43,996 nucleotides of DNA, from positions 5,082 through 49,077 of the forward strand of contig JARXKP010000002.1 of NCBI GenBank assembly GCA_030271615.1. Direction: 5' to 3'. Both the position numbers and the translations under genes were made by a program. This document shows, piece by piece, positions 1 to 12,520 of this stretch (its first letter is position 1; each line of letters begins with the position of its first letter). Under the pieces are notes generated by a model. The model did no database searches. It was not told where the DNA came from and was given only the letters and a program-made list of their open reading frames with translations. The DNA comes from Pseudomonadota bacterium. GTDB taxonomy: Bacteria; Pseudomonadota; Gammaproteobacteria; Burkholderiales; Burkholderiaceae_C.

Positions 1-510
1 GGCTGCTGGCCGAATCCTGCGCGTGCCGAAGGGCCCGAACTCAGTCACTTCGAGGTATCGCGCAGCGAAGAGGGCCTGCTGCTCGACTTTGCCGTGCGCT
101 TCGACCTCCCGCACAGCGTCGAAGAAGCGCTGTTGAAAGGCGTGCCTCTGTATTTCGTGGCAGATGCCTCGCTGTTCCGTGAACGCTGGTACTGGCGCGA
201 TCTGCGGGTCAACCGGGTGACGCGCACCTGGCGCCTTGCGTACCAGCCGCTGACGCGAACCTATCGGGTGAGCTTCGGTGGGCTGAACCAGAGTTTCGAC
301 AGCGTCGCCGACGCAGTGGCCGCAGTCCGCCGCATCAGTCACTGGAAACTGGCCGACCCGGGCCAGCTCGACGACGGCGAGCAGCACTACGTGGAGTTCA
401 GCTACAAGCTCGACACCACCTTGCTGCCGCGCCCGATGCAGATCGGCATCGGCGGCCAGCCCGACTGGAGCTTGCAGCTCGAAAAGACCCAACGCGTCAG
501 CCGACCTTAG
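1..510 (+). CDS. DUF4390 domain-containing protein (5' truncated by window edge)
   Basis: Frame 1 is open from base 1 to the stop at 510; sequence and position directly before an NtrY-like kinase fit DUF4390 proteins. Confidence 0.7.
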   Translation, partial: GCWPNPARAEGPELSHFEVSRSEEGLLLDFAVRFDLPHSVEEALLKGVPLYFVADASLFRERWYWRDLRVNRVTRTWRLAYQPLTRTYRVSFGGLNQSFDSVADAVAAVRRISHWKLADPGQLDDGEQHYVEFSYKLDTTLLPRPMQIGIGGQPDWSLQLEKTQRVSRP

Positions 511-3648: not shown

Positions 3649-3724
3649 GGCCTGGTAGCTCAGTTGGTAGAGCAGCGGATTGAAAATCCGCGTGTCGGTG
3701 GTTCGATTCCGCCCCAGGCCACCA
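3649..3724 (+). tRNA. tRNA-Phe (GAA), CCA encoded
   Basis: 76-nt cloverleaf: acceptor GGCCTGG/CCAGGCC, D-arm TAGCTCAGTTGGTAGAGC, anticodon arm GCGGATTGAAAATCCGC, T-arm GGTTCGATTCC, 3' ACCA. Confidence 0.97.
3675..3724 (+). repeat. attL: 50-bp direct repeat (3' part of tRNA-Phe)
   Basis: GCGGATTGAAAATCCGCGTGTCGGTGGTTCGATTCCGCCCCAGGCCACCA, identical to 11691-11740. Confidence 0.95.
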
Positions 3725-4102: not shown

Positions 4103-5011
4103 ATGACAACCCAACCGTCCAGCGCACGAGACGGCCACACCATAACCGCGCCCTTCGCAGCACCAGTCGAACAGTTCTCACTGTTCGGCAACGAAGATGT
4201 GAGCACAGCAGAACAGGCGGCCAGCTCAGCACCTACGGGCAAGTTCAGCAACTTTGTAGTGTTCGTAGACGAAAGTGGTGACCACGGCTTGCAGACCGTG
4301 GACCAGAACTATCCCGTCTTCGTTTTATCTTTCTGCGTGTTCTACAAACGCCACTACTGCGAAAAGGTCGTTCCTGCTCTGCAAAAGTTCAAGTTCAACC
4401 ATTTCGGCCACGACGTTGTGGTGCTTCATGAACATGAAATTCGCAAGGAAACGGGCAGTTTTAAGTTCCCAAGTCGCCGGCATAAGAACGACTTTCTCAA
4501 TGAGCTAACAGGGATCATCGACGCGAGCAATTTCATCCTCATCAGTTGTGTGATCAACAAGCTGCAACTGCGAGAAAAGCATCTCACTCCGGAGAATCCA
4601 TATCACCTAGCCCTCGGCTTCTGCCTCGAAACGCTCTACGAGTTTCTGCAAGAAAAGAATCAAGACGACGCACTAACACACGTAGTGGTGGAGTGCCGGG
4701 GTGGGAAAGAAGACAAGGATTTAGAACTGGAATTCCGCCGCATCTGCGACGGCAGCAATCGCTTGGGCGTGAACTTGCCCTTCGACGTGATATTTGCCGA
4801 CAAGAAGACCAATTCCTCTGGGCTTCAATTGGCGGACTTGGTGGCTCGGCCCATCGGCTTGAGCGTGTTGCGTCCTGACCAACAGAACCGGACGTTGGAG
4901 GTACTGAAGCGCAAGTACTTCTGCAGCGGCGGCCGCAACAACGTCGGTGAAGGCTTCAAGGACTGGGGGCTGAAGATATATCCGCCCCAAGAAAGCGAAA
5001 AGCCCCGATGA
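4103..5011 (+). CDS. DUF3800 domain-containing protein
   Basis: FVDESGDHG near the N-terminus and SSGLQLADLVARP near the C-terminus, typical of DUF3800. Confidence 0.8.
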   Translation: MTTQPSSARDGHTITAPFAAPVEQFSLFGNEDVSTAEQAASSAPTGKFSNFVVFVDESGDHGLQTVDQNYPVFVLSFCVFYKRHYCEKVVPALQKFKFNHFGHDVVVLHEHEIRKETGSFKFPSRRHKNDFLNELTGIIDASNFILISCVINKLQLREKHLTPENPYHLALGFCLETLYEFLQEKNQDDALTHVVVECRGGKEDKDLELEFRRICDGSNRLGVNLPFDVIFADKKTNSSGLQLADLVARPIGLSVLRPDQQNRTLEVLKRKYFCSGGRNNVGEGFKDWGLKIYPPQESEKPR

Positions 5012-7494: not shown

Positions 7495-7865
7495 GCAGCG
7501 TCCTCGATGAGGTAGGCGAGCGAGCCGCCGACTGGCGAGTACGCGGTGAACCCGAGCGCCAGAAGGACGGGTGCGAGGGCGGGGCCTGCGTCGCAAGCGC
7601 ACTCGCGATTGAGTCGAATGAAGCGGCCCGCGATCTCGACAGAGAACGTCACCTGTGCAGCGCGACCACCAGGACCGGCCATGCCTGCGGGAAGGGTGAC
7701 GACGCGGCCTGTGTCATCGATGGCGGACAGCGGTAGGGTTACTTCTTCGACTTTTCCAGCCTGTCCGATCGGGGCCTGATCGATGTCAACGTAGATGCCT
7801 GCGCAGCGGATCGAACCGGCTTTGACAGCCGTCAGGAATGATGTGGTTGCGCGGAAAACTGTCAT
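7491..7865 (-). CDS. Hypothetical protein
   Basis: MTVFRATTSFLTAVKAGSIRCAGIYVDIDQAPIGQAGKVEEVTLPLSAIDDTGRVV...; start overlaps Rep-like stop as ATGA. Confidence 0.6.
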   Translation of the reverse strand: MTVFRATTSFLTAVKAGSIRCAGIYVDIDQAPIGQAGKVEEVTLPLSAIDDTGRVVTLPAGMAGPGGRAAQVTFSVEIAGRFIRLNRECACDAGPALAPVLLALGFTAYSPVGGSLAYLIEDAA

Positions 7866-8737
7866 GGTGATTCCTTGAATGAAGCCGGGGTCACCGGCTG
7901 AGTGGGGGTGGCCGATCCGTTGAAGATCATTCGCGATCGAGCGGCGATGTACTGCGGGGAGAGAACGGGGAGTCGGCCCATCCAAAGCATTCGGCCCATG
8001 CGAGTAGCGCTACCCCGTCGGCTGCGCACCGGGGATGGCAACATGTATAGGAGTCCAGTTTCTGGACCTTGCCGATTCTGAGGATCGACGGTTGACGCAT
8101 CGGCCGGAAAGCTAGCACCGGCGCGGGGTTCAGGCTCAACTTCGCCCGGTTGGCATAGTCCAGAATCTGGAGCGATGGCACTTGGCAGAGTCCACGGAAT
8201 GGAGCGAGGCAGTCCAGAATCTGGAGCGACACAGCCCAATTTCTGGAGCTTCGCTTTTTTCTGCGGACCGCCGACATTCGGGTGGTCGGGTCGCTTCGCG
8301 GCCTCGTGCGCTGCATTGATTGCCGACAACGCGGCAGCCGTCGTTTCCCACCGAAGGTGGTCGTTCGTTGCCTTCGTGGCGACAACGCCTTTCTTCGCGA
8401 TCGCATGCGCCGGCTCGTTCGTGAACCGATACAGGCAGCACAGAGCGCCGCCGTGGGTCAGCCCGCCGACATCGCGGGTCTTGGCGATCAACCCGACAGC
8501 TTGAAGCCCGCGCAGAGCCTTCGCGATCGTGGTCGCAGACCTAAAGCCGAAGTGACGCAGCGTCGATAGGGTGCCTTCGATGTCGCCGTTGCAGCCTTCG
8601 TTTTTCAACTGGCGACGCATGGCGATATAGACGGCAATCTCGGTCGCCGACAGCGCATGCCATGCAGGGCTGTCGATCACGTCCCAATGAAGGCGGATGT
8701 GACCGCCGCGAGGGTCCGTCCGCTTGGCGGCGCTCAT
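7862..8737 (-). CDS. Winged-helix/HTH replication-like protein
   Basis: N-terminal HIRLHWDVIDSPAWHALSATEIAVYIAMRRQLKN...GFRSATTIAKALRGLQAVGLIAKTRD resembles phage/plasmid replication-protein wHTH; iteron-like repeats in its middle. Confidence 0.55.
   Translation of the reverse strand: MSAAKRTDPRGGHIRLHWDVIDSPAWHALSATEIAVYIAMRRQLKNEGCNGDIEGTLSTLRHFGFRSATTIAKALRGLQAVGLIAKTRDVGGLTHGGALCCLYRFTNEPAHAIAKKGVVATKATNDHLRWETTAAALSAINAAHEAAKRPDHPNVGGPQKKAKLQKLGCVAPDSGLPRSIPWTLPSAIAPDSGLCQPGEVEPEPRAGASFPADASTVDPQNRQGPETGLLYMLPSPVRSRRGSATRMGRMLWMGRLPVLSPQYIAARSRMIFNGSATPTQPVTPASFKESP
8053..8249. repeat. Iteron-like repeat cluster inside the Rep-like gene
   Basis: Minus-strand consensus CGCTCCAGATTCTGGACT; TGGAGC blocks at 8168, 8200, 8222 and 8244 (spacing 32, 22, 22); outlying GTCCAGTTTCTGGAC at 8053-8067. 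Confidence 0.6.
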
Positions 8738-9192
8738 TCAGTCGCCCCGTTTTTTGCGAGCGTGTAAGCCTTGACAAGGCGGGTGCCTCCGGTCGCAGTG
8801 GCGAGTCGGACCCACCGACTGACGAGCAGAAAGCCCGCGTGACGGAGTCCGCTAAACCGGGCGTGCGGCTGTTGCGCGTCGAGTTCTTCGACAGCATGTG
8901 CAGCCGTCAATTCGCCGGTCTTCAAGGCCCGGAGGATTCGCTGATCGTGGCCTCCGATGGTCAACGCGATTCGGCGAAGTTGGGCGCGGCGTTTCGGCGT
9001 GAGTCGGAAGATCGACGCCGCCTTCTTCTCGTCGGCACGCTGCTTCGCGATGACGAGGCTGCGGCTGTCGGCCAACAGTTGCGGTGCGCGCTTGTGACGC
9101 TGCAAATGAGGCTTGCTTTGTGGCGGGTTCTTGAATGGGGCGACGCTTCGAACGCTGCCCTTTTTCTTTGGGCGTCGAGTGGTGTGCTCCAT
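8734..9192 (-). CDS. Hypothetical basic protein
   Basis: MEHTTRRPKKKGSVRSVAPFKNPPQSKPHLQRHKRAPQLLADSRSLVIAKQRADEKKAASIFRLTPKRRAQLRRIAL...; overlaps Rep-like start as ATGA. Confidence 0.55.
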   Translation of the reverse strand: MEHTTRRPKKKGSVRSVAPFKNPPQSKPHLQRHKRAPQLLADSRSLVIAKQRADEKKAASIFRLTPKRRAQLRRIALTIGGHDQRILRALKTGELTAAHAVEELDAQQPHARFSGLRHAGFLLVSRWVRLATATGGTRLVKAYTLAKNGATE

Positions 9193-9193
9193 G

Positions 9194-9436
9194 TCACACA
9201 CCCATGACTCGGCGGATATCCGCGACAGCCCAGGCCAGACGGCCGTTCACGCGACGTGGGCGCAGCGGCCCCAATTCGTGGCAGGCCCACTTGCGCAACG
9301 TCTGCGGTGCGCGCCCCAGGTGCGGCGCAGCTTCAGCCGTGGGCAGATAGGCCCGGGCCTCCTGGTCAAGCGGCGTCAAGTGAGAGCGTGACTTTCCATT
9401 GGACGCGACAACGCCCACATATTCCGACTGTTGCAT
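9194..9436 (-). CDS. AlpA/excisionase-like helix-turn-helix protein
   Basis: LPTAEAAPHLGRAPQTLRKWACHELGPLRPRRVNGRLAWAVADIRRVMGV is MerR/Xis-like HTH; AGAGG RBS before ATG at 9436. Confidence 0.65.
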   Translation of the reverse strand: MQQSEYVGVVASNGKSRSHLTPLDQEARAYLPTAEAAPHLGRAPQTLRKWACHELGPLRPRRVNGRLAWAVADIRRVMGV

Positions 9437-9458
9437 TACCACCTCTGTGGTTAACCAA

Positions 9459-10071: not shown

Positions 10072-11529
10072 TCACGCTGCATTGGAGACCGCTTTCAGGC
10101 CACCGCGTGAGGCTTTGGCATCGAACGGCACACCCGCTTCCGCAAGCATCCAAGCCTCGATCTTTTCGTGATGAACACGCAGAAGATCGAGAGGACGGCG
10201 GATGTAGTTCTGCTCGCGCACGCCTTGCGGCGCGTGGCCTTGAATCTGTGCGCTGATGCCGCCCGGGATATCGAGCCACTCGCACAGGCTCGCGAAACTC
10301 CTGCGCAGCCCGTGCAAGGTCAGGCCATCCAACCCAGCGGCTGTGCATGCTTGGCGGTGCGCAATGCTGGGTTCAACAAGACGCCCGGAGGCGCTCGCAA
10401 ATGCCACATCACCGGCTGGCGCCTCGGTGCCTTTGGCAGCGTGATAACGGGCTCGGCGTGCGGCGTTCTTGCCGTCGAGATTGATAGCCCGGGCGCTTGA
10501 GAAAACCCACTCATTGCGGCGCGGTAGGCTTGCGATCAAGTCGGCGACGTAGGGCGTGAGGGGAACAGCGCGACGACCTTCGATCTTGTCCTTCAGGTCG
10601 ATTCCGCACCACTGGGTGTTCACGTCATCCCAGCGCAATTCGGCCAGTTCCTCGCGACGGGCGCCCGTCAACAGTAGGCATTGAAGGTAGGCGCTGATGA
10701 CTGGATTGCCGATCTTGCGGACATGCTCAAACCATGTCCGCAGTTGCTCGCGTTGCAGGTAGTCGTTTTTCGCCTTCGCCTTGCCGACAGCCTCGCGAGC
10801 CTTCTTCGCGCTGGCAGCAGCGGGATCGGCGCGGTCCTTCAGATCAGGCTCGGAGGCTGCCCAACGAAGAAACGCTTTCAACAGTCGCAGCGCCAAGCGC
10901 AATCGAGCAAGACGCGCAACGGGCTCGCTTGCCTCCTTGGAGACCCAGGCTTCGACGGCTGAGGCATTTAGGTCGGCAAGGCGCATCGGCATCAATGCAG
11001 CCAGCGGTCCCGGTTTCGTCATTACGTCCGGGCGGCGCAAGCGCGCCTTGCCGCCCAACTGGGCCAGCTTCAGATGGTCGGCGTAGTTGCGCTCGCCCCA
11101 ATGCGGTCTCCGTTCCTCGATGTAGCGCGTCCAGGCCTCGCCGACTGTCAGCGCCCGCGCAGCGACCTCGGCAGCAGCCGCCTCGGTTGCGGCTTGCTTC
11201 GCAGCGACGGCAGCAGCACGTGCCTCCGCTTTTTCCTCGGCTACCTCGCGGGGATCAAGGCCATCGTCCACGAGGCGCTTCTGCTCGGCAGCCCGAAGCC
11301 GTGCCATGTCGAGGGTCCAGTCGGCTGGGGAACCGATCGCAGTTCGGATCGTCTGGCCCTTCAGTCGCGCCTCGAAGACGTATGTCTTGCGCCCTGTTCG
11401 CGTGGCTCGCAGGGCCATCGTTGGCGTGTTGGTGTCCCAGAGGAACGCCTGCGACTTGTTCGGTGGACAGGTGAACAGTTCGACCCGTTTGGCTGTCAGC
11501 AGCACCCGGGCTGTTTTCGTCTCTGCCAT
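10072..11529 (-). CDS. int: P4-type tyrosine recombinase/integrase (DUF4102 N-terminus)
   Basis: N-terminal MALRATRTGRKTYVFEARLKG; catalytic GARREELAELRWDDV, LTLHGLRRSFASL, QGHA, C-terminal Y; adjacent to attR. Confidence 0.95.
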   Translation of the reverse strand: MAETKTARVLLTAKRVELFTCPPNKSQAFLWDTNTPTMALRATRTGRKTYVFEARLKGQTIRTAIGSPADWTLDMARLRAAEQKRLVDDGLDPREVAEEKAEARAAAVAAKQAATEAAAAEVAARALTVGEAWTRYIEERRPHWGERNYADHLKLAQLGGKARLRRPDVMTKPGPLAALMPMRLADLNASAVEAWVSKEASEPVARLARLRLALRLLKAFLRWAASEPDLKDRADPAAASAKKAREAVGKAKAKNDYLQREQLRTWFEHVRKIGNPVISAYLQCLLLTGARREELAELRWDDVNTQWCGIDLKDKIEGRRAVPLTPYVADLIASLPRRNEWVFSSARAINLDGKNAARRARYHAAKGTEAPAGDVAFASASGRLVEPSIAHRQACTAAGLDGLTLHGLRRSFASLCEWLDIPGGISAQIQGHAPQGVREQNYIRRPLDLLRVHHEKIEAWMLAEAGVPFDAKASRGGLKAVSNAA

Positions 11530-11544
11530 CGCCGCACCCCAACT

Positions 11545-11567
11545 TGTAGGCAATCTGTAGGCAATTT
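11545..11567 (+). repeat. Putative integrase arm-type site repeat, right copy
   Basis: TGTAGGCAATCTGTAGGCAATTT; 22/23 identical to 3783-3805. Confidence 0.7.
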
Positions 11568-11690: not shown

Positions 11691-11740
11691 GCGGATTGAA
11701 AATCCGCGTGTCGGTGGTTCGATTCCGCCCCAGGCCACCA
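11691..11740 (+). repeat. attR: 50-bp direct repeat (partial tRNA-Phe)
   Basis: Identical to 3675-3724; no 5' half of tRNA present. Confidence 0.95.
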
Positions 11741-11836: not shown

Positions 11837-12520
11837 TCAGCGTTCCTTTGACCTGCGGCGAAGTCGCGGCATCACGGGAATCACTGCCAGCCCCAAGACA
11901 GCAAGTGCCCAGCTCGCCGGCTCGGGCACGCCGACGCTGCTGCCGTCGAAGCTCACCTCGTCGACGAATACCCACTCATTGCCATAGGCGAACGCGACAT
12001 TGATGGACAAGGCGCTGGTGATACCGAGGTTATCGAACACCAGCCAGCTTGGCGCTGTTCCGAGATCGGGGTCGACTACCGCAAGGCTCACATTGCCCGT
12101 GCCCCAATCGAAGCTCACACGCGACGGCAGCGCCACGCCACCCGCCCCGCCGCTGTCATCGGCGTGGATCGAGATCATGTCGACGTTCACCGGGCCACCA
12201 AAGCTGAATTGAATCTGGAAATTGGGAAGGGTAGTTCGGCGCCAGCCGACGTAGGGCCCGGTTCCGGCAACGTTCTCGGTCGAGTACCAATTCAGGGTGC
12301 TGACGACGCCGTCGGTCAGGTTGCCTGTGCCGCCCGACAAGGCAGCGTTGTCGAGCGAGGTGGTGCCACTGCCGGTGTATTCCTTGTCCCAGTAGTTGTA
12401 CTGACCGCCTGCGGCCTGGCCGTTGCCGTTCGGCATGTCGTAGCCGACGGGCGTCACCGGGGTAGCGCTGGCAATCGAAGCGGCGCTTCCGAGCAGTAGC
12501 GCAAATGCAGTCTTTTTCAT
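11837..12520 (-). CDS. PEP-CTERM sorting domain-containing secreted protein
   Basis: Signal peptide MKKTAFALLLGSAASIASA; C-terminal VPEPASWALAVLGLAVIPVMPRLRRRSKER. Confidence 0.9.
   Translation of the reverse strand: MKKTAFALLLGSAASIASATPVTPVGYDMPNGNGQAAGGQYNYWDKEYTGSGTTSLDNAALSGGTGNLTDGVVSTLNWYSTENVAGTGPYVGWRRTTLPNFQIQFSFGGPVNVDMISIHADDSGGAGGVALPSRVSFDWGTGNVSLAVVDPDLGTAPSWLVFDNLGITSALSINVAFAYGNEWVFVDEVSFDGSSVGVPEPASWALAVLGLAVIPVMPRLRRRSKER

Follow-up and report, generated by a model that had tools for sequence, protein, structure and literature searches.

A phased dyad array within a predicted winged-helix initiator gene as the putative replication origin of an 8.0-kb integrative element

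We analyzed a 43,996-nucleotide stretch of DNA from a Pseudomonadota bacterium of the Burkholderiales (the window, hereafter) and find, inside a gene for a predicted replication initiator, an array of dyads that we read, with a probability of roughly 0.87, as the theta-type replication origin of an 8.0-kb element, bound by the winged-helix protein that this gene encodes. The reading draws on sequence-based evidence of several kinds: the array itself, its phasing, constraint at the level of DNA, a conserved tail beside the last dyad, co-variation between protein residues and dyad bases, and the predicted fold. Binding, dimerization, looping, melting, helicase loading and replication, as discussed below, are all deduced computationally.

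With both strands read, the array comprises five minus-strand 15-bp dyads at window positions 8053–8248, spaced 22, 22, 32 and 105 bp apart. Iteron 1 (8234-8248; CTCCAGAAATTGGGC, frame 0) is degenerate, iteron 2 (8212-8226; CTCCAGATTCTGGAC, frame 1) follows 22 bp past it, and iteron 3 (8190-8204; CTCCATTCCGTGGAC, frame 2), again degenerate, lies a further 22 bp on. Iteron 4 (8158-8172; CTCCAGATTCTGGAC, frame 1), 32 bp past iteron 3, is identical to iteron 2, and these two are the only exact copies in the window array. Iteron 5 (8053-8067; GTCCAGAAACTGGAC) is a near-perfect dyad with 6-bp arms GTCCAG/CTGGAC and stands 105 bp, or about ten helical turns, past iteron 4. An earlier note on this DNA had described four related blocks at 8168, 8200, 8222 and 8244, with spacings of 32, 22 and 22 bp, and a separate palindrome at 8053; the blocks and their spacing are confirmed, and the palindrome is equally real, although it is the fifth member of one set rather than a separate feature. 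The repeat score of 8031-8270 is reached by 0/1000 shuffles and by 0/200 synonymous recodings of ORF 7862-8737 that keep the same protein. In the draft genome (3.5 Mb), the TCCAGNNTCTGGA core has seven strand-hits distributed over five places, three of which are within the window array. GC skew is uninformative, with no clear origin signature seen.

The element that carries the array is 8,016 bp long and is bounded by an exact 50-bp direct repeat of the 3' end of tRNA-Phe. The attL-like copy (3675..3724, plus strand) is the end of an intact tRNA gene (3649-3724, identified with ARAGORN), while the attR-like copy (11691..11740, plus strand) closes the element. A tyrosine integrase (10072..11553, minus strand; Pfam Phage_integrase and Arm-DNA-bind_3, phrog_1 with E=3e-35) is found at the end opposite the intact tRNA. 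An AlpA/Cox-like HTH_17 protein (9194..9442, minus strand) matches phrog_66, excisionase and transcriptional regulator, with E=7e-4, and its gene is a recurrent partner of these initiators, being kept in related loci (15 matches). An HTH_39 winged-helix protein (8734..9201, minus strand; PF14090, E=2e-11) is encoded directly upstream of the 291-aa predicted initiator (7862..8737, minus strand). The Pfam and PHROG scans of the element proteins further identify a DUF3800 protein (4103-5011, plus strand), whose gene adjoins the intact tRNA-Phe end, lies in DNA of lower GC content (about 53%) and is probably cargo. The remaining content consists of several unknown proteins, and no structural, terminase, primase, helicase or loader genes were recognized among the element proteins in these scans. 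The flanks carry host-type genes; just beyond the attR-like repeat, at 11837-12520 on the minus strand, we observe a gene for a discoidin-like protein with a PEP-CTERM sorting motif. We read the whole as an integrative, satellite-like element.

For comparison, we gathered about 100 homologous loci from genomes of the family, order and class to which the window belongs, from GTDB contigs and from IMG/VR. The collection was built by genome searches and subset alignments, broader alignments being too diverse for pattern searches, and a single-protein search of genome contigs, viral contigs and plasmids returned no close relatives. The named homologues are mostly from Burkholderiales, including Variovorax, Ramlibacter, Roseateles and Rhodoferax. 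Calling an array where the 400 bp that follow the wHTH-coding part score above the best of 20 shuffles, we detect a locus-specific dyad array in 89/104 loci, compared with 11/101 downstream and 17/101 upstream control regions, with the qualification that the loci were gathered by homology and so are not fully independent, and that dyads and half-sites were extracted automatically. By this automatic method about 15 loci have no array above shuffle, several of them being distant members. One locus (L120) also has strong dyad repeats in its upstream control region (score 16), which are possibly operators or a second array.

In about 90 loci, the distance between the array and the wHTH coding region is nearly constant, and the array keeps its spacing where it does not keep its letters. 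Among window-type loci, intervals of 22-33-32/33-103..105 recur across diverged elements with entirely different letters, the dyad cores being TTCAG, TACAG, TGCAG, TTCGA and TCCAG, and a locus from another family of the order (L029) has intervals of 22, 22, 32 and 93, nearly the pattern of the window itself. Further spacing subtypes are 22-43-44 and 33-33-45. The latter is found in loci of the window's own bacterial family with SADVI/SNDVI-type helices (L030, L077-L096), in which the dyads lie mostly in one frame, repeated peptides such as TPSPG are encoded and the tail is of the ACCATCTAGA type. Because the helical-period fit of all spacings is high but not sharply peaked (0.79 at 10.25 bp), we state the phasing as clusters (22, 32-33, 43-45, 54, 65 and 103-105 bp) rather than as an independent statistic.

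Abutting iteron 5 on the minus strand is a conserved tail (8036..8052; TCCTATACATGTTGCCA), which we regard as a candidate minimal unwinding element. In most loci, the last dyad is directly followed by a short stretch biased towards AT, with CC on one side and (A/G)CCA on the other, as in ACCTTTATAGATATACCA and ACCTATGCATGTTGCCA, and this pattern occurs there in 60/78 distinct loci versus 47/3900 random positions (1.2%). The earlier note had cautioned that no strong AT-rich unwinding tract was evident; the tract is indeed short, some 11 bp from the CC to the GCCA that flank it, and no strong AT-rich tract lies next to the window array, but the caution overlooked the conserved tail, which partly answers it. 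No iterons are found beyond the window tail, and DnaA boxes are not enriched near the arrays (2 near, or 0.028 per kb, versus 0.024 elsewhere). When viral contigs were scanned for the tail string alone, 2/4 matches in a first set had upstream iterons (L135 and L137) and 0/5 in a second; since the string alone mostly gives chance matches in AT-rich genomes, the tail is informative only beside an array. In L135, an unrelated-looking wHTH gene on a viral contig is accompanied by four CTAGGGTTATAAATGACC copies ending at a CACCTTTATAGATATACCA tail (7528-7546 and upstream), which suggests that the tail may reach beyond the initiator family of the window.

The encoded protein belongs to a family for which no recognizing Pfam model exists: no model matches the window protein, none matches its relatives strongly, and the RepA_N model (PF06970) has 0 matches among 59 members. 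An AlphaFold2 (AF2) model from a 59-row alignment has a mean pLDDT of 83, exceeding 90 over most of residues 11-149, and predicts a wHTH domain at about residues 14-150 with a recognition helix at 68-81 and wing strands at 84-88 and 102-105; from about residue 150 onward, in the part that encodes the array, confidence is low. A single-sequence model (pLDDT 41) was discarded in favor of this alignment-based one. The protein is 34% identical to the 'replication protein O' of Pseudomonas phage vB_Pae_U1, and its homologues match PHROG replication-initiation families, with weak matches to O-like PHROGs in some relatives. The family profile weakly matches solved RepA_N initiator chains (E=5e-5), so that the RepA_N N-terminal domain may be the nearest detectable relative of known structure, whereas hhalign yields no significant alignment to lambda O (79 columns, probability 2.4%, E=0.019). 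The label 'lambda O-like' in the earlier note thus describes the arrangement well, with dyads in the gene after the DNA-binding domain, and does not extend to homology, where RepA_N may be nearer.

The fold itself is generic, as Foldseek returns winged-helix matches alone and the resemblance is to MarR-type regulators. With every site a dyad, as for dimeric repressors, and with HTH-type regulator genes adjoining the initiator gene, the repeats could instead be operators through which the wHTH protein acts as a transcriptional repressor, with no role in replication. We consider this improbable, because the array is found inside the ORF of the regulator itself or shortly past its end, and not at a promoter, at the near-constant distance described above, because the tail is conserved, and because relatives match replication-initiator profiles and RepA_N initiators. 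Autoregulation is possible as a secondary role of an array that serves as an origin.

Co-variation links the array to the protein. In all 64 loci of a 90%-non-redundant set, position -4 of the half-site is C, while base -3 follows residue 69, located at the N-terminal end of the recognition helix. Among the 102 wHTH-domain columns, residue 69 has the strongest co-variation with this base at each of three redundancy cuts (z = 12.1, 7.7 and 5.7). With related sequences counted, Asp or Glu at this residue accompanies G at -3 in 25/25 loci, and Ala, Thr, Val, Asn, Met or Leu accompanies A in 37/38. Base -5 is most strongly associated with residue 104 of the wing, and residue 68 scores as well, though this association is less secure because subfamily structure lifts the background. 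On a tree built with the helix residues masked, residue 69 is kept in 10/11 neighbor pairs that share a core versus 5/21 pairs with different cores (Fisher p=0.0005), and very close pairs have changed helix and core together, as in L063 (SPST, TACAG) and L065 (SSTT, TGCAG). In our view these patterns support, but do not prove, binding by each protein to its own array. Together with the confident winged-helix model, the co-variation between residue 69 and base -3 supports the proposal, made when the repeats were first described, that they are bound by the N-terminal wHTH of the protein encoded around them.

Iteron arrays in iteron plasmids can serve partition or copy-number control, and the absence of a strong adjacent AT-rich tract would also fit a role in centromere-like partition, incompatibility or packaging, in which the initiator or a different element protein occupies the array and the origin is situated outside it. 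This seems to us still more improbable than operators, given that the co-variation points to the initiator itself as the partner of the array, that no ParA-like gene is found among the element proteins scanned, and that the tail is placed directly beside the last dyad, as unwinding elements adjoin the iterons of known origins.

The pressure on the repeats acts on DNA rather than on peptide. In the window, the copies are read in three frames, one giving APDSGL, APDSGL and GPETGL and the others LQKLG and RSIPWT. The repeated APDSGL noted earlier is thus real, occurring twice with GPETGL once in a single frame, but spans just part of the array. Elsewhere, copies occupy more than one frame in 63/79 loci, the ORF stop precedes the last dyad in 65/87 homologous ORFs, synonymous recoding never rebuilds the array in 18/19 loci, and the peptides encoded by the arrays differ entirely among homologues. 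Multiple frames, stops before the last dyad and loss on recoding argue for selection on the DNA and not on the APDSGL peptide. The comparison of homologues proposed in the earlier note, run here on about 100 loci, finds dyads and helical phasing kept and the peptide not, which is the reverse of what that note had named as counting against an origin. That tandem APDSGL-like motifs of a disordered tail were selected as protein, with the DNA repeats a by-product, is scarcely credible even with the peptides that recur in one frame of the window and the mostly shared frame and repeated peptides of the 33-33-45 subtype, as it is contradicted by the frames used, the arrays that extend past stop codons, the score lost on synonymous recoding and the wholly different peptides of homologues.

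When compared to known systems, the putative origin shares features with several. In lambda-type phages, the origin lies inside the initiator gene with an AT-rich tract beyond the iterons (PMC7466680). The five dyads of the window, placed in ORF 7862-8737 just after the wHTH region, have this lambda O-type arrangement of an N-terminal DNA-binding domain with dyad iterons in the gene of the same protein (in lambda, some 350 nt from its start), and the annotated lambda iteron starts are 20, 24 and 23 bp apart, about two turns, like the spacing in the window. Lambda nevertheless has neither the 32/33 and 103-105 intervals nor the CC-AT-GCCA tail, differs in iteron sequence and half-site, and has a much longer AT-rich tract than the window tail; no match to its partner loader, gene P, was found among the downstream element proteins. 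In RepA_N theta plasmids of Gram-positive bacteria, such as pSK41 and pTZ2162, a wHTH N-terminal domain binds Rep boxes central in the rep gene and the C-terminal domain contacts primase (PMC5703833), and in the PLE satellites of Vibrio, the N-terminal domain of RepA and the origin co-vary (PMC8263062, PMC7145576). The window family resembles both in its wHTH N-terminal domain, semi-palindromic iterons and putative origin co-varying with that domain, and resembles RepA_N plasmids in that this putative origin lies within the rep gene, beside the part for the N-terminal domain. It departs from RepA_N in the length of its dyads (15 bp), in the C that is invariant at their position -4 and in its lack of a Pfam RepA_N match, and as most relatives end near the array (the same 65/87), they are without the C-terminal domain that is conserved among RepA_N proteins. 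The origin of PLEs, for its part, is in a noncoding region rather than inside repA.

Phage-inducible chromosomal islands (PICIs) carry iterons near the 3' end of rep and an AT-rich melting site (PMC6092414), and the element is like them in being small and integrative with int, an AlpA-like regulator, rep and a putative origin. In PICI origins, the AT-rich region stands between two iteron sets, whereas the window has its tail outside the last dyad on one side, and no primase or terS gene was recognized in the element. A further comparison is with phage vB_Pae_U1 (16 kb), the source of the 34% identical initiator, which has a similar gene order (integrase, cox, small genes, Rep O) and a dyad array, GTACAGAAACTGTAC, of the same position and tail class with different dyad letters. 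Its array crosses the stop codon into the next gene, annotated as a DNA primase, whereas that of the window stays inside the ORF.

A mechanism consistent with these observations would have initiator dimers bind each 15-bp dyad, with the recognition helix in the major groove and residue 69 reading base -3. Since the proximal cluster (22/22/32) and the distal dyad lie on roughly one helix face, the bound protein could form a single nucleoprotein complex, the distal dyad joining the cluster by looping over ten turns. The tail beside the distal dyad would then melt, and a host or helper helicase would be loaded for theta replication after excision. Helicase loading is the least known step, as there is neither a recognized loader gene, nor DnaA-box enrichment, nor a conserved RepA_N-type C-terminal domain.

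More broadly, the evidence leans towards one shared, unrecognized initiator-origin module in prophages and satellites across the Gammaproteobacteria (as defined in GTDB, and including Burkholderiales). Such a module would combine a Pfam-less wHTH initiator, phased locus-specific 15-bp dyads with invariant C at -4, a CC-(AT-rich)-[AG]CCA tail and a compact code in which residue 69 sets base -3 and residues 68 and 104 probably influence base -5. Origins within genes, as for lambda O and RepA_N, and co-variation of initiator and origin, as in PLEs, are already established. Our searches of the open-access literature found no description of this initiator family, its spacing rule, tail or recognition code, an absence that is weak evidence of novelty. 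Within about 80 distant relatives, the spacing is kept while the letters change in step with the protein, and the family provides dozens of natural experiments, with initiator and iterons switching specificity together and the geometry of the origin fixed. This allows a protein–DNA recognition code to be tested directly, origins to be predicted in unannotated satellites and prophages, and incompatible elements to be forecast, and it supplies a defined, short candidate melting site whose role is testable by mutation. If the reading as a shared module is true, the sequence of the origin and the incompatibility of an element would be partly predictable from the protein alone.
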